NCBI GenBank assembly: GCA_941918925.1
Contig: OW799234.1
Location: 94,157,978 to 94,221,977, forward strand
Length of the DNA stretch: 64,000 nt
Origin: Phyto melanocephala
Lineage: Eukaryota > Arthropoda > Insecta > Diptera > Rhinophoridae
Reading direction: 5' to 3'
Part shown: in pieces, positions 2,046 to 51,884 of the stretch
Position numbering within the stretch: position 1 is the first letter of the stretch
How the letters are laid out: each line of letters opens with the position of its first letter
Position numbers and translations under genes: made by a program
Notes under the pieces: generated by a model
Databases searched by the model: none
What the model was told of the DNA's origin: nothing
The model's input: the letters and a program-made list of their open reading frames with translations, nothing else

Positions 2046-4587
2046 AATTTAGAATACCTTGCGAATTCAGTAAATATATTCACGGTTTATTGCATTTACT
2101 TTCAACTTGAGGACTGTCTTTTCCAATCCAAGGATTTTTGGGAACACCATGAAACTTTGTGTGATGAAGCAAGGCGGTCTGAGTTTAGCTAATTCTACTT
2201 CTATCTCGATCATTTTTACACAGGGAGGTATCGCCAATCATTAAGTAATTTTTTCCACCGGTGTAGTATATTATTTAGCTTTTGAAACTTCAACACGGAT
2301 ATCTTAAACATACACATCATTAAAATACATTTCTTTATCTCAAACTTGTTTGGCTTATATTCAAATAATTTAGCTAAATTTACAGCACAGTGGGATCATT
2401 CGTAAAATAAATGGATATAAATATGTAGTTAATTTAAAACTTGAAAAATCGACAAAAATATGCTAATAAAAGAAATACTAAATACTATCTAATTGCACAA
2501 AGTTTTAATATCTACTGATTGAAGAAGTTTTTAAAATTTTTGAGCTGCATATTCTATACATCAGTCAAGTTTACAATATTCCCAGCCCCAACGGTAGTGT
2601 AAAGTTTAGAAGAATTAAAAAAAATATGAAGAATTTTGTTACCATAATACTTGTTGGCTTTTATTTTAAAACACACATAAAAGTCCTAAGAGATTGTTAT
2701 TTGTATAATATATACTAACATATCTACTCTGTGCTCCTTACATACATATACACATTCATTCATTTATATAGATTTATTTGCCAACCATCCGCCATTAATA
2801 AATCGTTTATTTTTTAGAACAAACTTTAATTTATTGAAATGATTTTGAAGTAGTTTAACACCCCATCACTTTTTCTTTATTCAACTTAAGTTATATGCAG
2901 CATATGAAGAGCAGAATACTTGTCTGATAAAAGTTTTATTGAAAAACTTTTGCTGAATAACACATTCTTTCCAGCCTCACTTTTGCTACGCCTTATGATT
3001 TTGCAAGAGAGCTTAAAAAAACTTTCATTGAAATAAATGGTTCTAGATTGTCAATCGATTTATTTATATGAAAAATATTGCTTATCTATTTTTTTTTAGA
3101 AAGCATTAACAAACAACTTAAAAGAGAAACTTTAAAGTATATTTTAAGTTTAAATCTGATTAAACAATTTGGTTTGGAATAATCTCCCAAAACGACCACT
3201 TGCTGTTGATAAAACATTTTAAAATGACGACATCAAACATTGTCTTATATAAAAGGGTTGATTGAATAAGTATTGGATTTTAAAAGAAAAAAAAAATTAT
3301 AAAATACGAATTTAGTGTTTCATTAAGAATAAGCCATAAATTACTTGTTTTATTTAAGCATGTTTATTTTTTTAAATCATTTATTTGCAGAATCCACATA
3401 AAGTGGGAAAGCTTTATAATAAATCTTAAACATAATTGACAAGGACACTTTTCATTTGCCTATTATTCACAACTTAAGAGTCTGCAAATGGGTATGAAGA
3501 GTTTGGAATTTTTAAAGGAAGCTATAAATTCAACACTTAATAAATCATTCAGTTTAAGTAAAGTCGTCAGGATTTTTTTTAGCTGTAAACAAATGTTGTT
3601 AACAGCCTTGTTTTCGTATAAATACTAGTTTTTAGGTTAATTGTTCAACAATATATTTATTTATTCATTTATTTATTTTGTTAGAATGTATTATTATCTT
3701 TTTAAGTGGAAGTGGTGGAAGCAGATAAATAAAATATTTACAAACATAACTAATGCCAGTTTGCCGCAGGCCTTTTAAATAAAACTTATTTTACTTTATT
3801 TCTTTAATTTTTATTTTTTTTTTCTTGTTTCTTTCGTTATATTTGTTTACTGTTTGGATCTTTAAAGATAGGTTTGTGTTGATACAAATTTTTTATATTT
3901 TTTAGGAACTATTTTTTCTTAACTTTGTTTTTAATAAAACAACAAAAACATATTTGCTTCTAACGCCTCGGGATATACTTTTTAATGCTTTGAAAGTTTT
4001 ATCAATTTCTATAATAAAAAAAAATTACTTCACAAAATTCATTAAATATCCTTAGGGATCTTTAAATTAGTTGTTATCTTTTAGTAATGCCAGACAATGG
4101 TACAATACATCATTATTGTTTATTTATATTATGTTGTTTAGCTAATGGGCAAAATTTAAAACTCTTGCTGTCAAATATACAATTTTCTAATATTAAAACA
4201 AAAGATATCTATAAAATATTTTTTTATATTCCATCTGAAAAAGAAATACCCAAAGGTAGGAGAAAATAAAAAATATATGCTAATAAATAGTAGTCATCAA
4301 ATCAGTTATTTAGTTGAATTGTGACAACATTAAACATAACAATATAATAAGATCTAAAAGGTTTTCCAATAAGAGTGTTATGATTTCTTAAAAAAAACAC
4401 AAGCTTTTTATTAAGGAAATTCTTGGACAGTTTTGTTGGTTTACTGCACTTCTCAGATAAAAGTGAGCCTTGGTTTAGTGGAAATAGTGTTCGAATCGAA
4501 TCGAATTCGTTCCTGCAGAAGAAGTCGTGAAGGCCATTTGAATGACGTTTTATTTAGAACTTATATGATTCGAGTGTACTTCACATT
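2046..4587. other. AT-rich intronic or flanking DNA without recognisable genes
   Basis: About 2.5 kb of low-complexity AT-rich sequence with poly-T tracts and an ATTTATTT-rich patch near 3650-3690. The only reading frame (4087-4269, 60 codons) has no recognisable motif and AT-biased composition. I see no splice-flanked KChIP exon here. Confidence 0.6.
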
Positions 4588-6344: not shown

Positions 6345-6690
6345 TATCAAAACTCGCCTCTCAATAAGTCCATTGTTAGGCGTGCTGTGTGACATGTGGC
6401 ACCGTATTGTTGAAACCACATGTCATGCAAGTCAAGCTCTTGCATTTTGGGCAAAAAAAAGTTGGATATCATCTCACGGTAGCGCTCACCATTCACAGTT
6501 ACGAAAAAGTACGGTCCAATGATACCACCAGCCCATAAACCCCACCAAGCTGTGACTTTTTCTGGATGCATTGGTAGCTCTTGCAATGCTTCTGGCTGAT
6601 CTTCACTCCAAAATCGACAATTCTGCTTATTAACGTACCCATTGAGCCAAAAAAAAGCTTCGTCGATGAACACAATTTTTCGATAAGAAG
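6345..6690 (-). pseudogene. Fossil Tc1/mariner-superfamily transposase fragment
   Basis: The minus strand encodes a central transposase segment with the DEA(F)FWLNGYVNKQNCR block, 'LPMHPEKVTAWWGLW', 'GPYFF', 'VNGERYREMI' and 'DMWFQQYGATCHTA'. In active relatives the last block reads QQDGATCHTA, so the second catalytic Asp is Tyr here. It lacks the N-terminal DNA-binding part and everything after LLRGEF. Both termini are gone. A dead remnant lying just upstream of a KChIP exon. Confidence 0.85.
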
Positions 6691-6764
6691 CGCGCGATGA
6701 ACTTTGTTAACAGAGCACGCATTAGCATACATGCATACATGCATTAGCTAGTATTAAAAAAGAA

Positions 6765-8590: not shown

Positions 8591-9300
8591 TATATTTTAA
8601 TGCAAATGGCTTTGATAGTAGTAATTAGACTCACATATTTTTAAGATTAGGTTTACATTTAAGAAATACTATATTTTAAGAAAGTTTTATACATGTTATG
8701 TTAAAATAGTTTAACTCAGACTAGCAAATTATTAAAGCATTATTTTTTCTTATTTAAAATTAATTTTGTGTTAAACTATTACTTCAGAATAATACTTTAT
8801 ATAAAATTTATGTATATGCATTTAGGTTTTATAAACACTTGGGATTATTATGACCAAATAAAAAACAAAAACAATTTTTCTAAGTGTGGTATAACCGGGC
8901 TGTAGTTTCTGTTTAATATAAACCTGCTTACAGTTTATTATTAATTTTTTACTCGTAAAGGCTGAGAAGATTAAATAAAAATAAAACATGGAAAGTATTT
9001 TTTAATGCACATCCAATTAACTTTATTTATTAGATAATTTTATAGCATTAATATTCACATATTATTTCGGAAATATAGACGCCATAGAAAGTACATGCAT
9101 GACATAGACAGAAGGTCTTATTGTCATACTCGTTTTTAAGTAAATCAGGCTTTGTTTCTGCTATACAGTGCCAAGTATTCATTTCCACGAGCTTAATCGT
9201 ATCTGGTTATCCTGCAAGACTTTCAATTTTCCACAAGAAAATTATATAAAGACTTCAAAACACATAAACGAGATGGCCTGTAAACAGGTTATTTTCTTTT
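8591..9300. other. Intronic DNA, nothing recognised
   Basis: AT-rich sequence without conserved motifs, open frames of note, or repeats shared elsewhere in the window that I can see. Confidence 0.6.
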
Positions 9301-34916: not shown

Positions 34917-37051
34917 TATTGTGTTTCATCCACTTCCAAATCTGAATCGATTTCGATTACGCAATCACCTTCGACTTTCAGATCATGGTAAAATTGGTGA
35001 AAACTTTTGTTTATTAACGGCAGCATCTCAATCAAATCTCGCTTTTTGTTAATTGAAATATGCAGCTTATTGCTGTAGCTTTTGCTTAAAGGACCATATT
35101 CAGTTTTTCGACGACGCGGTTCGATATTTAACCTTTTGAACCCCTCCGCTAATTCTACAGAATATTTGTACTGTAAAATTCCTGGTAGTTACTTTTCATA
35201 ACGCATCGAACGAATAAGCTTCCATTCGAACTTTTCACCTAAAAATAATAAACAAAGTAAGATGATATACAAAAATGGTAAATAGATTAGTTTAACAAAC
35301 CTGTTTTCTAGTTATATCTTTCTTTCAACAAAGATTTAAAATCATAAAAGTCTTCTTGTTTTAATTCGTGAACTTTATACTTTGAACTTGTAGCAGCAAT
35401 TAAATTAACCCAATTATGAGGATGTTGAATAGAGCTTGAAGATTTTTTATCTTTTTTTCAATTTGTGAGTGAACTGTGTCACATTCAAGATGAGTGTGAC
35501 CTACAACAAGAAATTTGTGATCAATGGAGGCAATATTCGGATGATCTTGTGTGACTTTTAAGAACATAGAGCTAATGTAGGTGTTTCGATTTTGGCCGGG
35601 GCATGAATCGCTATATAAAATAACATGTTTCACCAAATTAGGTAAATCAGTGAGACACTTAAGAATGCAGTAACCAATGTCGTTTGCACCACGTTTGGCA
35701 ATAGTTTCATTCCAAATATAGCAATGAGCATTTTTAAATGCACCATCATACATAGTCAAATTAAAAGACCACAAAGGACGTTTGAATAAGAATATTGATG
35801 CGTTCAAGTATGGAGTTGGAAGACATTGCTGTAAGTCAAATGAAAACATTTTTACGGATTGGTCACTTTTAGATAGCTCTTTATCGTTTCTTTTTTGATC
35901 GTAAGCAAAGTCATGATGGTGTGTAGATAATTGCATGGAAAGTTCAGCCTTTACGTTTACATCTTCAGAATTTTTGATTTTGACTTTTAAAATTTCACAA
36001 CGAGTGCATAAATCAAGTTGTGGTTTCTTGAAATAAATGTCTAGCGTATGAAATATTTTCTGAAACTTTGATTCGGATACTGGTCGAGATATTTTTTCCG
36101 TGTAAAGTTGTAATAATGTTGCGAGATTAAGTCCACGATGGAAATACACCTTGTTTGTGTGACGGCGTATGTAATGGCTTTGGTATTTTGGGAACTCATT
36201 AAAAAATTTAACAACTTCATTATGTTTTTCAATAGGCAACTTGTGAGATGGAGCATATTTGCCGCGTTGGTTATTTTGTACAAAAACATGTGTACCATGT
36301 ATCTTATAGTTACATATGGTTTTAATTGATTGGTTAGTTTCGCCAAAAATATTTAAAAAGCATCGTTTACAAACTCTCACTTTTTCACCGTGAATTTCAA
36401 AGTGGTATAAATAATTGTATTGACGAGTTTTTGGATTTTGAGATTTTTTAAGAGTTGAAGTTTTTTTCGACTGGATTTCGATTAAGTTTAATAAAACTTG
36501 ACGCCTTTTATTATAATCTCCCAAATTCCAATAAGACTCGAAAATAGATTTCTGTTGTTTAAAACTTATTTTTGTGTTGCATTTCTGTCTACAGTTTCCC
36601 AACTCATGTGTTTCTTTAGCAGAAATAACTTGATTTTTGTACGTTACATACTCTTTTCGTAGATTTTTATTGCGTCTATTATCTTTTAAGTGATGAACTT
36701 GGCAGCTCATTTTCATTTTGTTCACGTGATTCGAAATTGTTCAAGTTAGCTTCTAAGATAGCTCCCATAGTCCTAATACTCTCTGACTATTTAACTATTT
36801 AATTCTGATTCTGAAATTCTTCGAAGGAATAAATTAGGAATCATCGAAGTCAGTTTCGTGAAATACATCTTTACTTTCGCTGTCAATTTCTCCAACACTA
36901 CTATTAACTTTTTGTAATCTTTTGACTGAAGTTTAAGCAACATATATTCAATCAATTCTACATCGTGCGAGGTTGCTATCTCATAGGGAAGCTGCTTCCA
37001 TATTGACTCTTCTTCGCTAGCTAAACTTTCCAGACTCTTTTTTTTAAACAT
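34917..37051 (-). pseudogene. Transposase-like gene of the uncharacterised DUF7869 type, frameshifted
   Basis: The main frame (36725-35400, 441 residues) has paired cysteines near its start (GNCRQKC), an FESYWNLGDYNKRRQ block, 'HKLPIEKHNEVVKFF', CTRCE, and then three acidic blocks: FSFDLQQCLPTP, VILYSDSCPGQNRNT and VVGHTHLECDTVHSQIEKK. This order is typical of insect proteins I know as DUF7869; the Asp spacing suggests an RNase H-like (DDE) fold, which is inference. After IEKK a one-base shift in an A-run (about 35446) opens another frame continuing HPHNWVNLIAA. A 62-base intron (35239-35300, GT..AG on the minus strand) precedes EKFEWKLIRSMRYEK, and the last exon ends near 34918 in AATAAA. 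An upstream frame (37051-36791, MFKKKSLESLAS) probably belongs to the N-terminus. At least two frame breaks and a stop make it non-functional. Confidence 0.7.
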
Positions 37052-38684: not shown

Positions 38685-40425
38685 TATACCCTTCACACAG
38701 TGAAAAAGGGTATATATAGGTTTGTCATTCCGTGTGAAATTTCTACAATTTTCATTTCCGACCCCATAAAGTATATATTTTCTGAAAGCTTATGAATAGG
38801 GGAGTCGATTAAGCTCTGTCAGTCTGTCCGTCTGTCCGTCTGTCCATCTGACCGTCTGTCCGTGTGTATGTTGAAATCAACTTTTTGAAGCCCCCCGACA
38901 TCGCTTGGACCCGGGTGAGGTATTAAAATATCAGAAATATTCGGGAGTAGATCGGTATTGAAATCCAGACACATCGGTACATAAACAACTGAGATATGAG
39001 CAAAAACCCACGACCACCTCGATTTTTTTTCCACAAAAACAACATTACAACAACAACATACATACATACAAACGTGTATACTGGTTAGAGAAAACGTGAC
39101 ATCGAATCCCAGCTGAGCCACAAAATTTTTTTTTTTTTTTAATTTTTTTTTTAATTTTTTTTTTATTTTTTTTTTATCTTTATTTAATACTAGCCAAACC
39201 CGGCGCGCGTTGCTACGCCCCTTAATGAATCAAAATGCATTCTGAGTTTTAATTGAATATCAAGTGCAAAAACCTAAAAATTAAAATTTTTTTATGGGCG
39301 TGGCCTTGCCCAATTTTCTAATCACGAAATTGTAAAGTCGTAACAGCTCAATACGTGTGCAAAGTTTTAGAAGAATCGGACCAGTGCAAGTACCTCAAAA
39401 TTATAATTGTTTTTATGGGCGTGGCCCTGCCCACTTTTCTAGTCACGAAATTGTAAAGTCATAACAGCTCAATATGTGTGCAAAGTTTCAGAATAATCGG
39501 TCCAGTGCAAATACCTCAAAATGATAACTTTTTTTTATGGGCGTGGCACTGCCCACTTTTCTAATCACGAAATTATTTACTCATGACAGCTCGATATGTG
39601 TGCAAAGTTTCAGAAAAATCGGTCTGGTGCAAGTACCTCAAAATTATAACCTTTTTTTATGGGCGTGGCCCTGCCCACTTTTCTAGTCACGAAATTATAT
39701 GGTTGTGACAGCTTAGTATGTGTGCAAGGTTTCAGAAAAATCGGTCCAGTGCAAGTACCTCAAAATTAAAACTTTTTTAGGGGCGTGGCCCCGCCCACTT
39801 TTTTTATCACGAAATTATTTAGTCATGACAGCTCGATATGTGTGCAAAGTTTCAGAAAAATCGGTCAAGTGCAAGTAGCTAAAACTGATAACTAATTTTT
39901 TATGGGCGTGGCGCCGCCCACTTTTTTTCACCCATAAACACTTCCTGGTATGTGTACAACAACTTACCAAAGTTTGAGCCCGATCGGTTTTACAGTTTCG
40001 GAGTCTATAGCTAACACACACACACACACACACACAGAGTTTCACTTTTATATATATAGATATTATTTATATTTTTATTATTTTTTTTTTAAATTTTTTA
40101 AAAATTTTTTTTTTTAATTTTTTTTTGTTTTATATTTATTATTATTATTGAAAAAAAAAATTTTTTTGTTTTTTAATTTTTTTTTTTAATTTTTTTTTAA
40201 AATTTTTTTTTTATAAATTTTTTTTTTCTTTTTTTTTTTTCTTTTAACATACATACGTAAAGTTTTAATTTTAAAGTGGGTTGTTTTTTTATATGTATGT
40301 TTTTTATATCGTTGTACGTATTTCATATGGGATGAATGGTGATACAAACTACTGTTATTGTATGACTACACGTTGTGAAGGGTATATAAGATTCGGCACG
40401 GCCGAATATAGCGCTCTTACTTGTT
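38685..40425 (-). repeat. INE-1/DINE-like repeat, subfamily B, interrupted full copy
   Basis: Reads, on the minus strand, from 'aacaagtaagagcgctatat' (40425) to the terminal hairpin at 38685-38710, colinear with 16134-16981. Its A-rich centre is interrupted by the repeat at 39190-40060. The 100-codon frame at 38819-39121 is the same repeat-derived frame found at 16560. Confidence 0.7.
39190..40060 (+). repeat. Non-autonomous element with six ~121-bp tandem units
   Basis: Starts 'ctagccaaacccggcgcgcg' and 'tgctacgccccttaatgaat', then repeats a unit with 'gggcgtggcc', 'tgcccacttttctaatcacg' and 'agctcaatatgtgtgcaaag' at 39299, 39419, 39540, 39661, 39781 and 39904. It ends in a (CA)n tract and 'agtttcacttttatatatat'. 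Inserted in a DINE copy. Helitron-like or SINE-like; unresolved. Confidence 0.7.
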
Positions 40426-49300: not shown

Positions 49301-49728
49301 TTTTTTTGGATAATTTGTGTTTCTTAAAGCACACCTTCGGTAACTAGTAACGCTTTTTTTGTTTGAGGGAAGACTTCAATTATTTGTAATTACTGTTCAG
49401 GTGTGTACTTTGTTATATGAAAATAGTGTATTTATGCTATGTTTTGACATTGATAGACTGGTTATAGGTTTAAGGATAATATATTTAATACAAGATTTTC
49501 TTAAATAAATATATATTTTACAATTATTAACAAAAATATTTATTTTACGTAAAGAAACTAAGAATGCGGCTTAGTTTTCTACCTATTTTGTTAGTAACAT
49601 AATTGCGTATCGCTCCCTTGTAATTGATCTAAATATATATAATTCTTAAACATTCCTTGATTATACCTAAATGCAATAGCAATTAAAGTTTCAGAGAAGT
49701 CCCTCCACTAAAAATCTATTTTCCTAAA

Positions 49729-49741
49729 TAGTCTTCTTAAT
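49729..49741 (+). repeat. 13-bp direct repeat left of the hammerhead array (target duplication)
   Basis: TAGTCTTCTTAAT, repeated exactly at 51294-51306 at the other edge of the array. Confidence 0.7.
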
Positions 49742-49867
49742 ATTAAATTTTAATGTGAACCATTTTTTATTTTGGCTTAAGTTCATTTGTTTCTTTATTT
49801 TTAATTTTATAATTCAAATTAAATTAAATTGTAACCATTGTAGGAATATTCTTTCTAAAAATTATTT

Positions 49868-49935
49868 CCGATATTAGCCGAGTGGAATGCATTTTCGAAA
49901 TCAGCTACGATTTCATCATCAGCACTCTTTATCGG
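49868..49935 (-). ncRNA. Type-I hammerhead ribozyme, unit 1
   Basis: Minus strand: outer stem I CCGATA/TATCGG, internal loop AA/GGCTAA, inner stem I GAGTG/CACTC, core CTGATGA, stem II GAAATC-GTAGCT-GATTTC, core GAAA, two-pair stem III (AA/TT around TGCA) and cleavable C (complement of 49885). One extra T lies between CTGATGA and stem II, which departs from the textbook core. A short stem III usually means such ribozymes work as tandem dimers. Confidence 0.8.
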
Positions 49936-50413
49936 TATACTACTATGTAACTTAAAATTCCTATTTATGTTACAATTGAATGAAATTTGAATTAGTGAAT
50001 CTTAGTATTAATTTTCATATTTTGTTGAATATTTAATTTCACCTATCAAATGACAATTCATAATTCAACATGTTCATATTCTTCTATATTCGTAATACAT
50101 TTTCGTTATGCTTTCAATATCCATCCTTTGGCTGGAATTATTGAAAACAAGGTTGTATTTACATTTTTCATTTATATAAGTCCATCTAGGTGATAGACAC
50201 TGAACAATGAATTCTTGAATGTCATTAACACCGTGCCATGTGTGTTATAATTATATATTTATATTTTATTCGAACTTTTTTCTATATATTAAATTTTAAT
50301 GTGAACCATTTTTTATTTTGGCTTAAGTTCATTTGTTTCTTTATTTTTAATTTTATAATTCAAATTAAATTAAATTGTAACCATTGTAGGAATATTCTTT
50401 CTAAGAATTATTT

Positions 50414-50481
50414 CCGATATTAGCCGAGTGGAATGCATTTTCGAAATCAGCTACGATTTCATCATCAGCACTCTTTATCGG
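50414..50481 (-). ncRNA. Type-I hammerhead ribozyme, unit 2
   Basis: All 68 bases of the fold are identical to unit 1, 546 bases further on. Confidence 0.8.
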
Positions 50482-50959
50482 TATACTACTATGTAACTTA
50501 AAATTCCTATTTATGTTACAATTGAATGAAATTTGAATTAGTGAATCTTAGTATTAATTTTCATATTTTGTTGAATATTTAATTTCACCTATCAAATGAC
50601 AATTCATAATTCAACATGTTCATATTCTTCTATATTCGTAATACATTTTCGTTATGCTTTCAATATCCATCCTTTGGCTGGAATTATTGAAAACAAGGTT
50701 GTATTTACATTTTTCATTTATATAAGTCCATCTAGGTGATAGACACTGAACAATGAATTCTTGAATGTCATTAACACCGTGCCATGTGTGTTATAATTAT
50801 ATATTTATATTTTATTCGAACTTTTTTCTATATATTAAATTTTATTGTGAACCATTTTTTATTTTGGCTTAAGTTCATTTGTTTCTTTATTTTTAATTTT
50901 ATAATTCAAATTAAATTAAATTGTAACCATTGTAGGAATATTCTTTCTAAAAATTATTT

Positions 50960-51027
50960 CCGATATTAGCCGAGTGGAATGCATTTTCGAAATCAGCTAC
51001 GATTTCATCATCAGCACTCTTTATCGG
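50960..51027 (-). ncRNA. Type-I hammerhead ribozyme, unit 3
   Basis: All 68 bases of the fold are identical to unit 1. Confidence 0.8.
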
Positions 51028-51069
51028 TATACTACTATGTAACTTAAAATTCCTATTTATGTTACAAAA

Positions 51070-51117
51070 GAGTGCTGATGATGAAATCGTAGCTGATTTC
51101 GAAAATGCATTCCACTC
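51070..51117 (+). ncRNA. Hammerhead ribozyme in the inverted partial unit, outer stem lost
   Basis: Keeps inner stem I (GAGTG/CACTC), both core segments and stem II, but the 5' half of the outer stem I (CCGATA) is cut away at the inversion junction. Confidence 0.65.
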
Positions 51118-51884
51118 GGCTAATATCGGAAATAATTTTTAGAAAGAATATTCCTACAATGGTTACAATTTAATTTAATTTGAATTATAAAATTAAAAAT
51201 AAAGAAACAAATGAACTTAAGCCAAAATAAAAAATGGTTCACATTAAAATTTAATATATAGAAAAAAGTTCGAATAAAATATAAATATATAATTAGTCTT
51301 CTTAATGTTCATAACAATATTAGAAATATGTTAACATTTTGGCTGGCTAATTTCTAAGACATAAGTCAAAATAATAAATTTTCCACAAACAGTTTTATTT
51401 TGAAAAGCTGTAATATAACGCACATCATATGCGAGATTGACCGACTATTACTTTCTTTTATATTTTTTACAATGTCGTTGTTATATTTTTGATATTCGTT
51501 TATCCGTTTAGAGATTTATGAGATGAGAGGTAAACAGTAGGTTTATTCAAAAAATAGTGACAAAAAATATAATAGAACTTAAATAACATTTAAAAACCGT
51601 AACAATTTAGTTGTATTCTTATTTTATGTACAAACAAAATGTGTGCAAATTTGAGGTATCATTTTAAATTGTATAAAAATAAAAAGAGTTTCTTCTTTAA
51701 TTTTTAAAATATTGTTTCTTGTAGTTTATTACAAATTGGTTTCGATAAACAAATAAAAATTATGTCAGTCAAGTGAGCTACAAGTTCGGTAGGCTCCTTA
51801 TATTTTAACCAAAATTTTTAAACAGTGCTTTTAATAAACTGTTGTCTGTTGGATAATTTTATTTTTAAGGAATTATTTGTGTAC

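Follow-up and report, generated by a model that had tools for sequence, protein, structure and literature searches.

The window, that is the whole stretch of 64,000 nucleotides analysed here, carries hammerhead ribozyme motifs in a repeated 546-nt unit inside a KChIP-like gene, and raises the question of what kind of element this unit belongs to and how it was brought there. For animal retrozymes, the identity of the mobilising enzyme and a role of the plentiful circular RNAs as its template are open issues, and Penelope-like elements (PLEs) are suspected as the movers on circumstantial grounds in the portions of two accounts used here (PMC7229834, PMC7761336).

A sequence-only reading of the window had described three units in tandem. 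Self-comparison of the window bore out the 546-bp spacing; the array itself proved to be composed of an arm of about 2.4 non-coding units with three complete type-I hammerhead (HHR) motifs, and of a shorter inverted arm that is 100% complementary to part of the long one. The reading had overlooked a 13-bp target-site duplication (TSD) on the two sides. The window array is a single head-to-head insertion, named L001 in the set of loci, with the following features.

49729-49741: left copy of the TSD, TAGTCTTCTTAAT, the last 2 nt of which are also element sequence
49740-51067, minus strand: long arm of some 2.4 units, each 546 nt in length, whose RNA 3' terminus is at 49740 (site A, position 145 of the unit)
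49868-49935, minus strand: hammerhead 1, predicted cleavage 49885/49884, recognised from the sequence, by the descriptor scan and by model R1 built from its own family, with no match in Rfam
50414-50481, minus strand: hammerhead 2, recognised by the descriptor scan and the family-built model R1
50960-51027, minus strand: hammerhead 3, recognised by the descriptor scan and the family-built model R1
51067: head-to-head join of the arms, 1 nt common to both (L001 position 2827)
51067-51129, plus strand: partial hammerhead in the inverted arm, with the core and inner stem I and without the 5' strand of outer stem I
51067-51295, plus strand: short inverted arm, 229 nt, whose RNA 3' terminus is at 51295 (site B, position 183 of the unit)
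51294-51306: right copy of the TSD, the first 2 nt of which are also element sequence

The unit has a GC content of 24.9% and no long open reading frame (ORF), its longest ATG frames being of 22 codons in sense and 61 codons in antisense, and the monomer RNA is predicted to fold more stably than 100 shuffled sequences (z = -4.1). The proposed location in a KChIP intron agrees with the KChIP-like exons found on both sides, at +7302, for which the closest solved structures are calsenilin and KChIP4, and at +59462, for which they are NCS-1 and then the KChIPs. Within this intron, 50794-51295 is an inverted repeat, perfect over 229 bp and interrupted by a spacer of 44 nt, which in the KChIP pre-mRNA would give a long hairpin with one partial sense hammerhead and might be a source of small RNAs. 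Elsewhere in the window, inspection by eye disclosed an ORF resembling a mariner-type transposase on the minus strand at 6347-6706, a resemblance shared by an ORF of another locus (L041:618-1367); a 446-codon open frame is present on the minus strand at 35400-36740, and at 39263-39925 a 122-bp sequence is repeated 5.5 times in tandem.

The HHR motif reads, on the sense strand, CCGATA AA GAGTG CTGATGA T GAAATC GTAGCT GATTTC GAAA ATGCAT TC^CACTC GGCTAA TATCGG. It contains the core positions of a type-I hammerhead. The three minus-strand motifs of the sequence-only reading were recovered at their positions with every part claimed for them, namely CTGATGA, GAAA and a C suited to cleavage, a stem I in two parts, a stem II of 6 bp and a stem III of two pairs, and the cleavage position assigned to the first of them agrees with the sequence. 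A descriptor scan that used inner stem I only gave three minus-strand matches and one plus-strand match, at 51075, in the 64-kb window, and 0 matches in 400 simulated 64-kb windows with the same dinucleotide make-up. The comparison with Rfam hammerhead covariance models that had been proposed as a check was run, and no hammerhead match was obtained with the whole window at the gathering threshold or with 49700-51350 at E up to 10. The lack of a covariance match, named by the sequence-only reading among its refutations, was thus encountered with Rfam, but the motif is complete, non-random in the descriptor scan and better conserved in young copies than any other part of them: compared with the window unit, the HHR diverges by 0.2%, unit positions 191-478 by 0.7% and 20-190 by 2.9%, the last value being inflated by gaps and flank overrun. 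Eight Rfam matches to 49700-51350 at the loose threshold were rejected, two of them to miRNA models, for which the inverted arms pass as a hairpin, and the others to snoRNA and S15-leader models, under their cut-offs.

Among 12 HHR variants of the family no compensatory change in the stems was detected, so that covariation does not yet support the fold and is uninformative either way. An extra base before stem II (after A9) occurs in all 104 near-complete copies listed, as T or, in a few, as C. Judging from the motif, pairing is conceivable between UAGC in loop II and GCUA in the internal loop of stem I, and a dimeric hammerhead might form through AAUGCAUU, the self-complementary strand of stem III. 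The junction TTC^CACTC is intact in 92 of 108 HHR BLAST matches (L001, L009-L039), and the 16 altered ones are located in L017/L018 (11), L019 (4) and L039 (1). The paper on the PLE of the anole places C3 and G8 ahead of the start codon, and its text, as distinct from an alignment, implies a CUGAUG-AUG arrangement that would resemble the one in the unit (PMC11167929).

Search of the genome (740 Mb, 9 contigs) disclosed at least 31 further places of the element outside the window, mostly dispersed and on several contigs. The first search, in which the best 33 of 120 candidates were scored, gave 29 places (31 regions, three of them one cluster), or 30 with the window; the second, in which the best 40 of 197 were scored, added an insertion at C1:67.65 Mb and a place at C5:34.6 Mb, the copy counts being lower bounds. 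Head-to-head arms were found in 15 of the 32 places: 14 belong to the first 30, and the C1 insertion, taken as one place, makes the fifteenth. In all 15 the RNA 3' sides face outward. Single-ended copies with a mapped end occupy 13 places, six with an end at A, six at B and one (L010) at 172. No canonical end was mapped in L019, L020 and L021, and at C5:34.6 Mb the arm, of at least 18 units, extends past the region examined.

The C1 insertion, a large one, is found again at 67.69 Mb (L051, L065, L066, L074) with identical join, flank and TSD, and was thus duplicated after insertion. At C2:38.56-38.58 Mb (L016-L018) there is a local array of about 20 kb composed of diverged units largely in one orientation, with 11 HHR copies altered at the cleavage junction, and from its sequence this looks like a retroelement becoming a satellite. 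Weak matches of about 70% to unit positions 77-187, in L018 and L026, were discarded as A-rich sequence. In L009, the unit at 3079-3237 jumps internally from position 388 to 7 in an otherwise homogeneous arm, perhaps as a result of a template jump.

First-pass BLAST ends ran into the flanks (L001, L009, L015, L034), and the ends were re-mapped by strict local alignment, with the right border of L009 set by hand after inspection. For the first 30 places this gave the positions of 40 ends. Site A (140-148) takes up 18 of them and site B (177-186), some 38 nt away, another 20, so that the two clusters account for 38 of the 40. The exceptions are L010, at 172, and the right end of L009, at 153, which becomes 146 once 7 nt common to the target are discounted. 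Each of the 13 fully mapped head-to-head insertions, including all 10 with a TSD of 13-15 bp, has A at one end and B at the other, for which the chance under independent choice with equal odds is 1.2e-4. L016, also head-to-head, is not among the 13, its right end halting at unit position 346 against other sequence. In the C1 insertion, the fourteenth, B (near 178) is paired with a third site near 61, at the right end, and in 0 of the 14 is the same site used twice.

Exact TSDs in the 13 insertions measure 13-15 bp in 10 cases and 7-8 bp in 2, with none in 1, and the longest duplication in 156 mismatched pairings was 10 bp; the TSD of the C1 insertion is 15 bp. Homology between target and element at 20 start sites has a mean of 3.6 nt against 1.1 nt in 180 mismatched controls, a value obtained from maximised matches in AT-rich DNA and uncertain in size, which suggests that the starts have a short homology with the target. 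Every insertion has its own arm join, with an overlap of 0-4 nt in eight and a filler of 1-4 nt in four of the 12 counted, the join of L013 being unreliable and left out. The lengths of the arms bear on the template. If the template were a linear monomer released by HHR cleavage, synthesis begun at 145 or 182 would reach its end within 145 or 182 nt, and 25 of the 26 arms of the 13 insertions are longer than this, the exception being the short arm of L028; thus the template was circular or uncut. The cleavage junction is intact in the HHR copies of these 13 loci.

Comparison of the units gave further information on the template. Between the two arms of an insertion, units show differences at 32 of 40,869 sites (0.08%), and within an arm at 62 of 36,624 (0.17%), 32 of the 62 in L010 alone; units of different insertions differ at 9,082 of 555,193 sites (1.6%). 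These figures leave aside positions 77-106 of the unit, gapped sites and the last 8 nt at either outer end, and the untrimmed values are 0.30% within and 1.92% between insertions. Random re-pairing of the arms gave none as good in 20,000 trials (p = 5e-5). The partner arm is the closest one for 10 of 12 insertions (two with ties), and for the window insertion and L012 the arms of three other insertions are nearer than the partner. In a tree of 54 units, the 11 of L009 and the 12 of L011 form one clade each, with 7 identical units spanning both arms; L010, L013, L014 and L019 are single clades too, and L001 and L012 are not. The 18 units at C5:34.6 Mb have three fixed variants in common and two single-unit variants in 9,675 sites. 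Four fixed variants are common to all units covered of L009 and the C1 array, with no shared single-unit variant in the parts compared, and the two probably derive from a common source. The homogeneity of both arms and the lack of inherited single-unit variants point to one monomer per insertion, i.e. a circle. Against one haplotype per insertion stand the mixed units of L010, differing at 32 of 2,283 sites, and the old array L019 with its 120 variable positions.

On these grounds it seems probable that the insertions belong to a retrozyme-like non-autonomous element, the monomeric and probably circular RNA of which is copied from both target ends by a trans-acting enzyme of the Penelope type. 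The tandem array would be transcribed, and the HHRs would cut the RNA into 546-nt monomers to be ligated into circles. A PLE-type reverse transcriptase (RT)/endonuclease supplied in trans would make staggered cuts, up to 13-15 bp apart, in the two strands of the target, and both DNA 3' ends would prime reverse transcription, a step whose footprint is seen in the insertions. Synthesis would begin at about position 145 of the unit from one end and at about 182 from the other, on a monomeric template copied for multiple laps; for this step the starts and the homogeneity are observed, and the template would be circular. Last, the two cDNAs would be joined head to head and the target stagger would become the TSD. 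Outward 3' ends at two adjacent fixed sites, TSDs and variable joins match a PLE protein able to cut and extend the two target strands from neighbouring internal starts (PMC11167929), and match as well the inverted pLTR of rotifer PLEs, with or without its tail (PMC3846280). Priming of sense RNA from two ends accounts for this same build, since the ends start at different sites and each adjoins the TSD.

By anatomy, then, the element appears retrozyme-like and by footprint PLE-mobilised; its membership among retrozymes is likely, with a unit larger than their usual size, and it is not an autonomous PLE. The label "retrozyme/Penelope-like" given by the sequence-only reading gains from the TSDs, the outward RNA 3' ends at two fixed sites, the head-to-head arms and the unit homogeneity, and its suggestion of recent activity from exact TSDs and arms that are identical or nearly so. 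The 546-nt circle that it predicted gains indirect support from the single RNA haplotype of each insertion and from start positions for which the copied template must span the cleavage site. More tentatively, and with somewhat less than even confidence, a dimeric PLE-type enzyme may act on one circular RNA, each protomer using one start site and extending one target end, so that a complete insertion would be an A/B palindrome from a single RNA molecule copied many laps, of which there are about 7 units in one arm of L009 and at least 18 in that at C5:34.6 Mb.

Several observations count against copying of a circle from both target ends. L023, L028 and L032 have no long TSD, and the antisense arm of L028 is only about 50 nt; the C1 insertion uses the site near 61, L010 has mixed units, and L001 and L012 are not single clades. 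The Rfam hammerhead match and compensatory changes within the family, both looked for as described above, are absent. In the anole PLE, the HHR is dispensable for insertion in vitro, and RNA-seq gave no reads ending at the HHR cleavage site (PMC11167929).

As for the helper enzyme, a search of the genome with the GIY-YIG profile PF01541 gave one match, SLX1-like, which by eye we take to be the open frame of the host SLX1; this too weighs against the PLE reading. A second HHR family was found in L042 (C2:38.55 Mb), with copies at 712-940 and 3884-4110, 3,172 bp apart, the second copy having one core letter of CTGATGA changed. L042 and the 546-nt unit have in common a module, about 215 nt in length, that reaches from the HHR to the region of the RT starts, and no similarity is visible in the alignment upstream of the HHR; the module is the likely cis signal. 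Among the ORFs of at least 80 codons between the two L042 copies no RT was recognised by eye, and a LINE-like ORF pair was seen by eye downstream, at L042:6941-9900.

The same enzyme might have used as template an uncleaved linear multimer from the parental array, with no need of a circle. The anole PLE inserts uncleaved RNA in vitro (PMC11167929) and the units of L010 are mixed, as this alternative would have it; nevertheless it is unlikely in view of the four fixed variants shared by L009 and the C1 array with no single-unit variant in common, and of the 18 units at C5:34.6 Mb with their three fixed variants and two single-unit changes. A parental array that was itself homogeneous might, read as a linear multimer, also give homogeneous arms. 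Target-primed insertion of the LINE type with twin priming is much less credible. LINEs too give inverted segments and TSDs, yet here a poly-A or 3'-repeat end is absent, the ends lie at two internal sites and there are several head-to-tail units per arm.

Two DNA-level explanations are more improbable still, and to a similar degree. A Foldback-type DNA transposon with tandem repeats in its inverted arms, like Tetris of Drosophila virilis, would account for the long inverted arms of tandem units, the TSD and the local satellite-like array, and the part of the Tetris account used here describes a comparable build (PMC4079207). It is largely contradicted by termini that are unlike (A against B) in 13 of 13 insertions where identical inverted ones would be foreseen, by the single-ended copies, 13 of the first 30 places, which carry just one such end, and by the join and unit haplotype proper to each insertion. 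An ordinary satellite spread by unequal exchange, with the hammerhead incidental, takes up one of the refutations that the sequence-only reading had named, an ordinary satellite. The array of about 20 kb on C2, with its diverged units and altered cleavage junctions, is indeed satellite-like; for the other copies the explanation is contradicted by their dispersal, by the long TSDs in 10 of 13 mapped head-to-head insertions and by the lower divergence of the HHR than of the rest of the unit in young copies. Copying of a monomeric RNA from both target ends by a PLE-type enzyme is thus the reading preferred here.

The insertions bear a two-start footprint of the PLE type together with a signature of one haplotype per insertion, and suggest that PLE palindromes can come from two-ended priming of a sense template. 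For the inverted pLTR of rotifer PLEs, self-priming on an antisense template is favoured in the part of the account consulted (PMC3846280). Both the helper machinery and the origin of the palindromes are now open to direct testing. If the reading with a dimeric enzyme on one circle were true, the helper machinery of animal retrozymes would be identified and the circle would be the transposition template.

In comparison with known systems, the element resembles metazoan non-LTR retrozymes, as far as the portion of Cervera and de la Pena 2020 used here describes them, in its non-coding AT-rich unit, type-I HHR and tandem copies, and in a monomer that folds better than shuffled sequences (PMC7229834). 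The same portion gives a GC content below 50% and a TSD above 4 bp for retrozymes, and the values found are 24.9% and, in 10 of 13 insertions, 13-15 bp. It gives a descriptive range of about 150-450 bp for the unit and about 170-400 nt for the RNA, which the 546-nt unit exceeds, as the sequence-only reading had remarked; RNA circles of 150 to more than 1000 nt are allowed there for HHR-flanked repeats in general (PMC7229834). Head-to-head inserts with two start sites, recognised here from DNA alone, are not in that portion of the retrozyme description. Tetris, in the part of its account used, shares inverted arms with internal tandem repeats and a tie to satellite arrays, and differs from the element, which has non-identical termini at two RNA start sites and unit haplotypes for each insertion (PMC4079207). 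In titles and abstracts of open-licence literature, neither PLE-type ends for a retrozyme nor one-haplotype insertions were found to be reported.

Unlike a canonical PLE, the element has no RT/GIY-YIG ORF, and the strict pairing of A with B and the single RNA haplotype per insertion are absent from the PLE accounts in the portions used (PMC3846280, PMC11167929). The anole PLE (Poseidon of Anolis) cuts and extends both strands in vitro from two adjacent internal starts, which are not homologous to the cut DNA, in contrast to the short homology suggested for the 546-nt element (PMC11167929). Rotifer PLEs, in the part of their description used, are bordered by TSDs and have an inverted pLTR, to which a tail of 31 bp may be added at one side (PMC3846280). 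Insofar as these partial accounts go, the 546-nt element is like PLEs in having an HHR followed by two adjacent RT starts, with 38 nt between them here against a tail of 30-40 bp, and in the extension of both target strands, the inverted arm and the short TSD (PMC3846280, PMC11167929).
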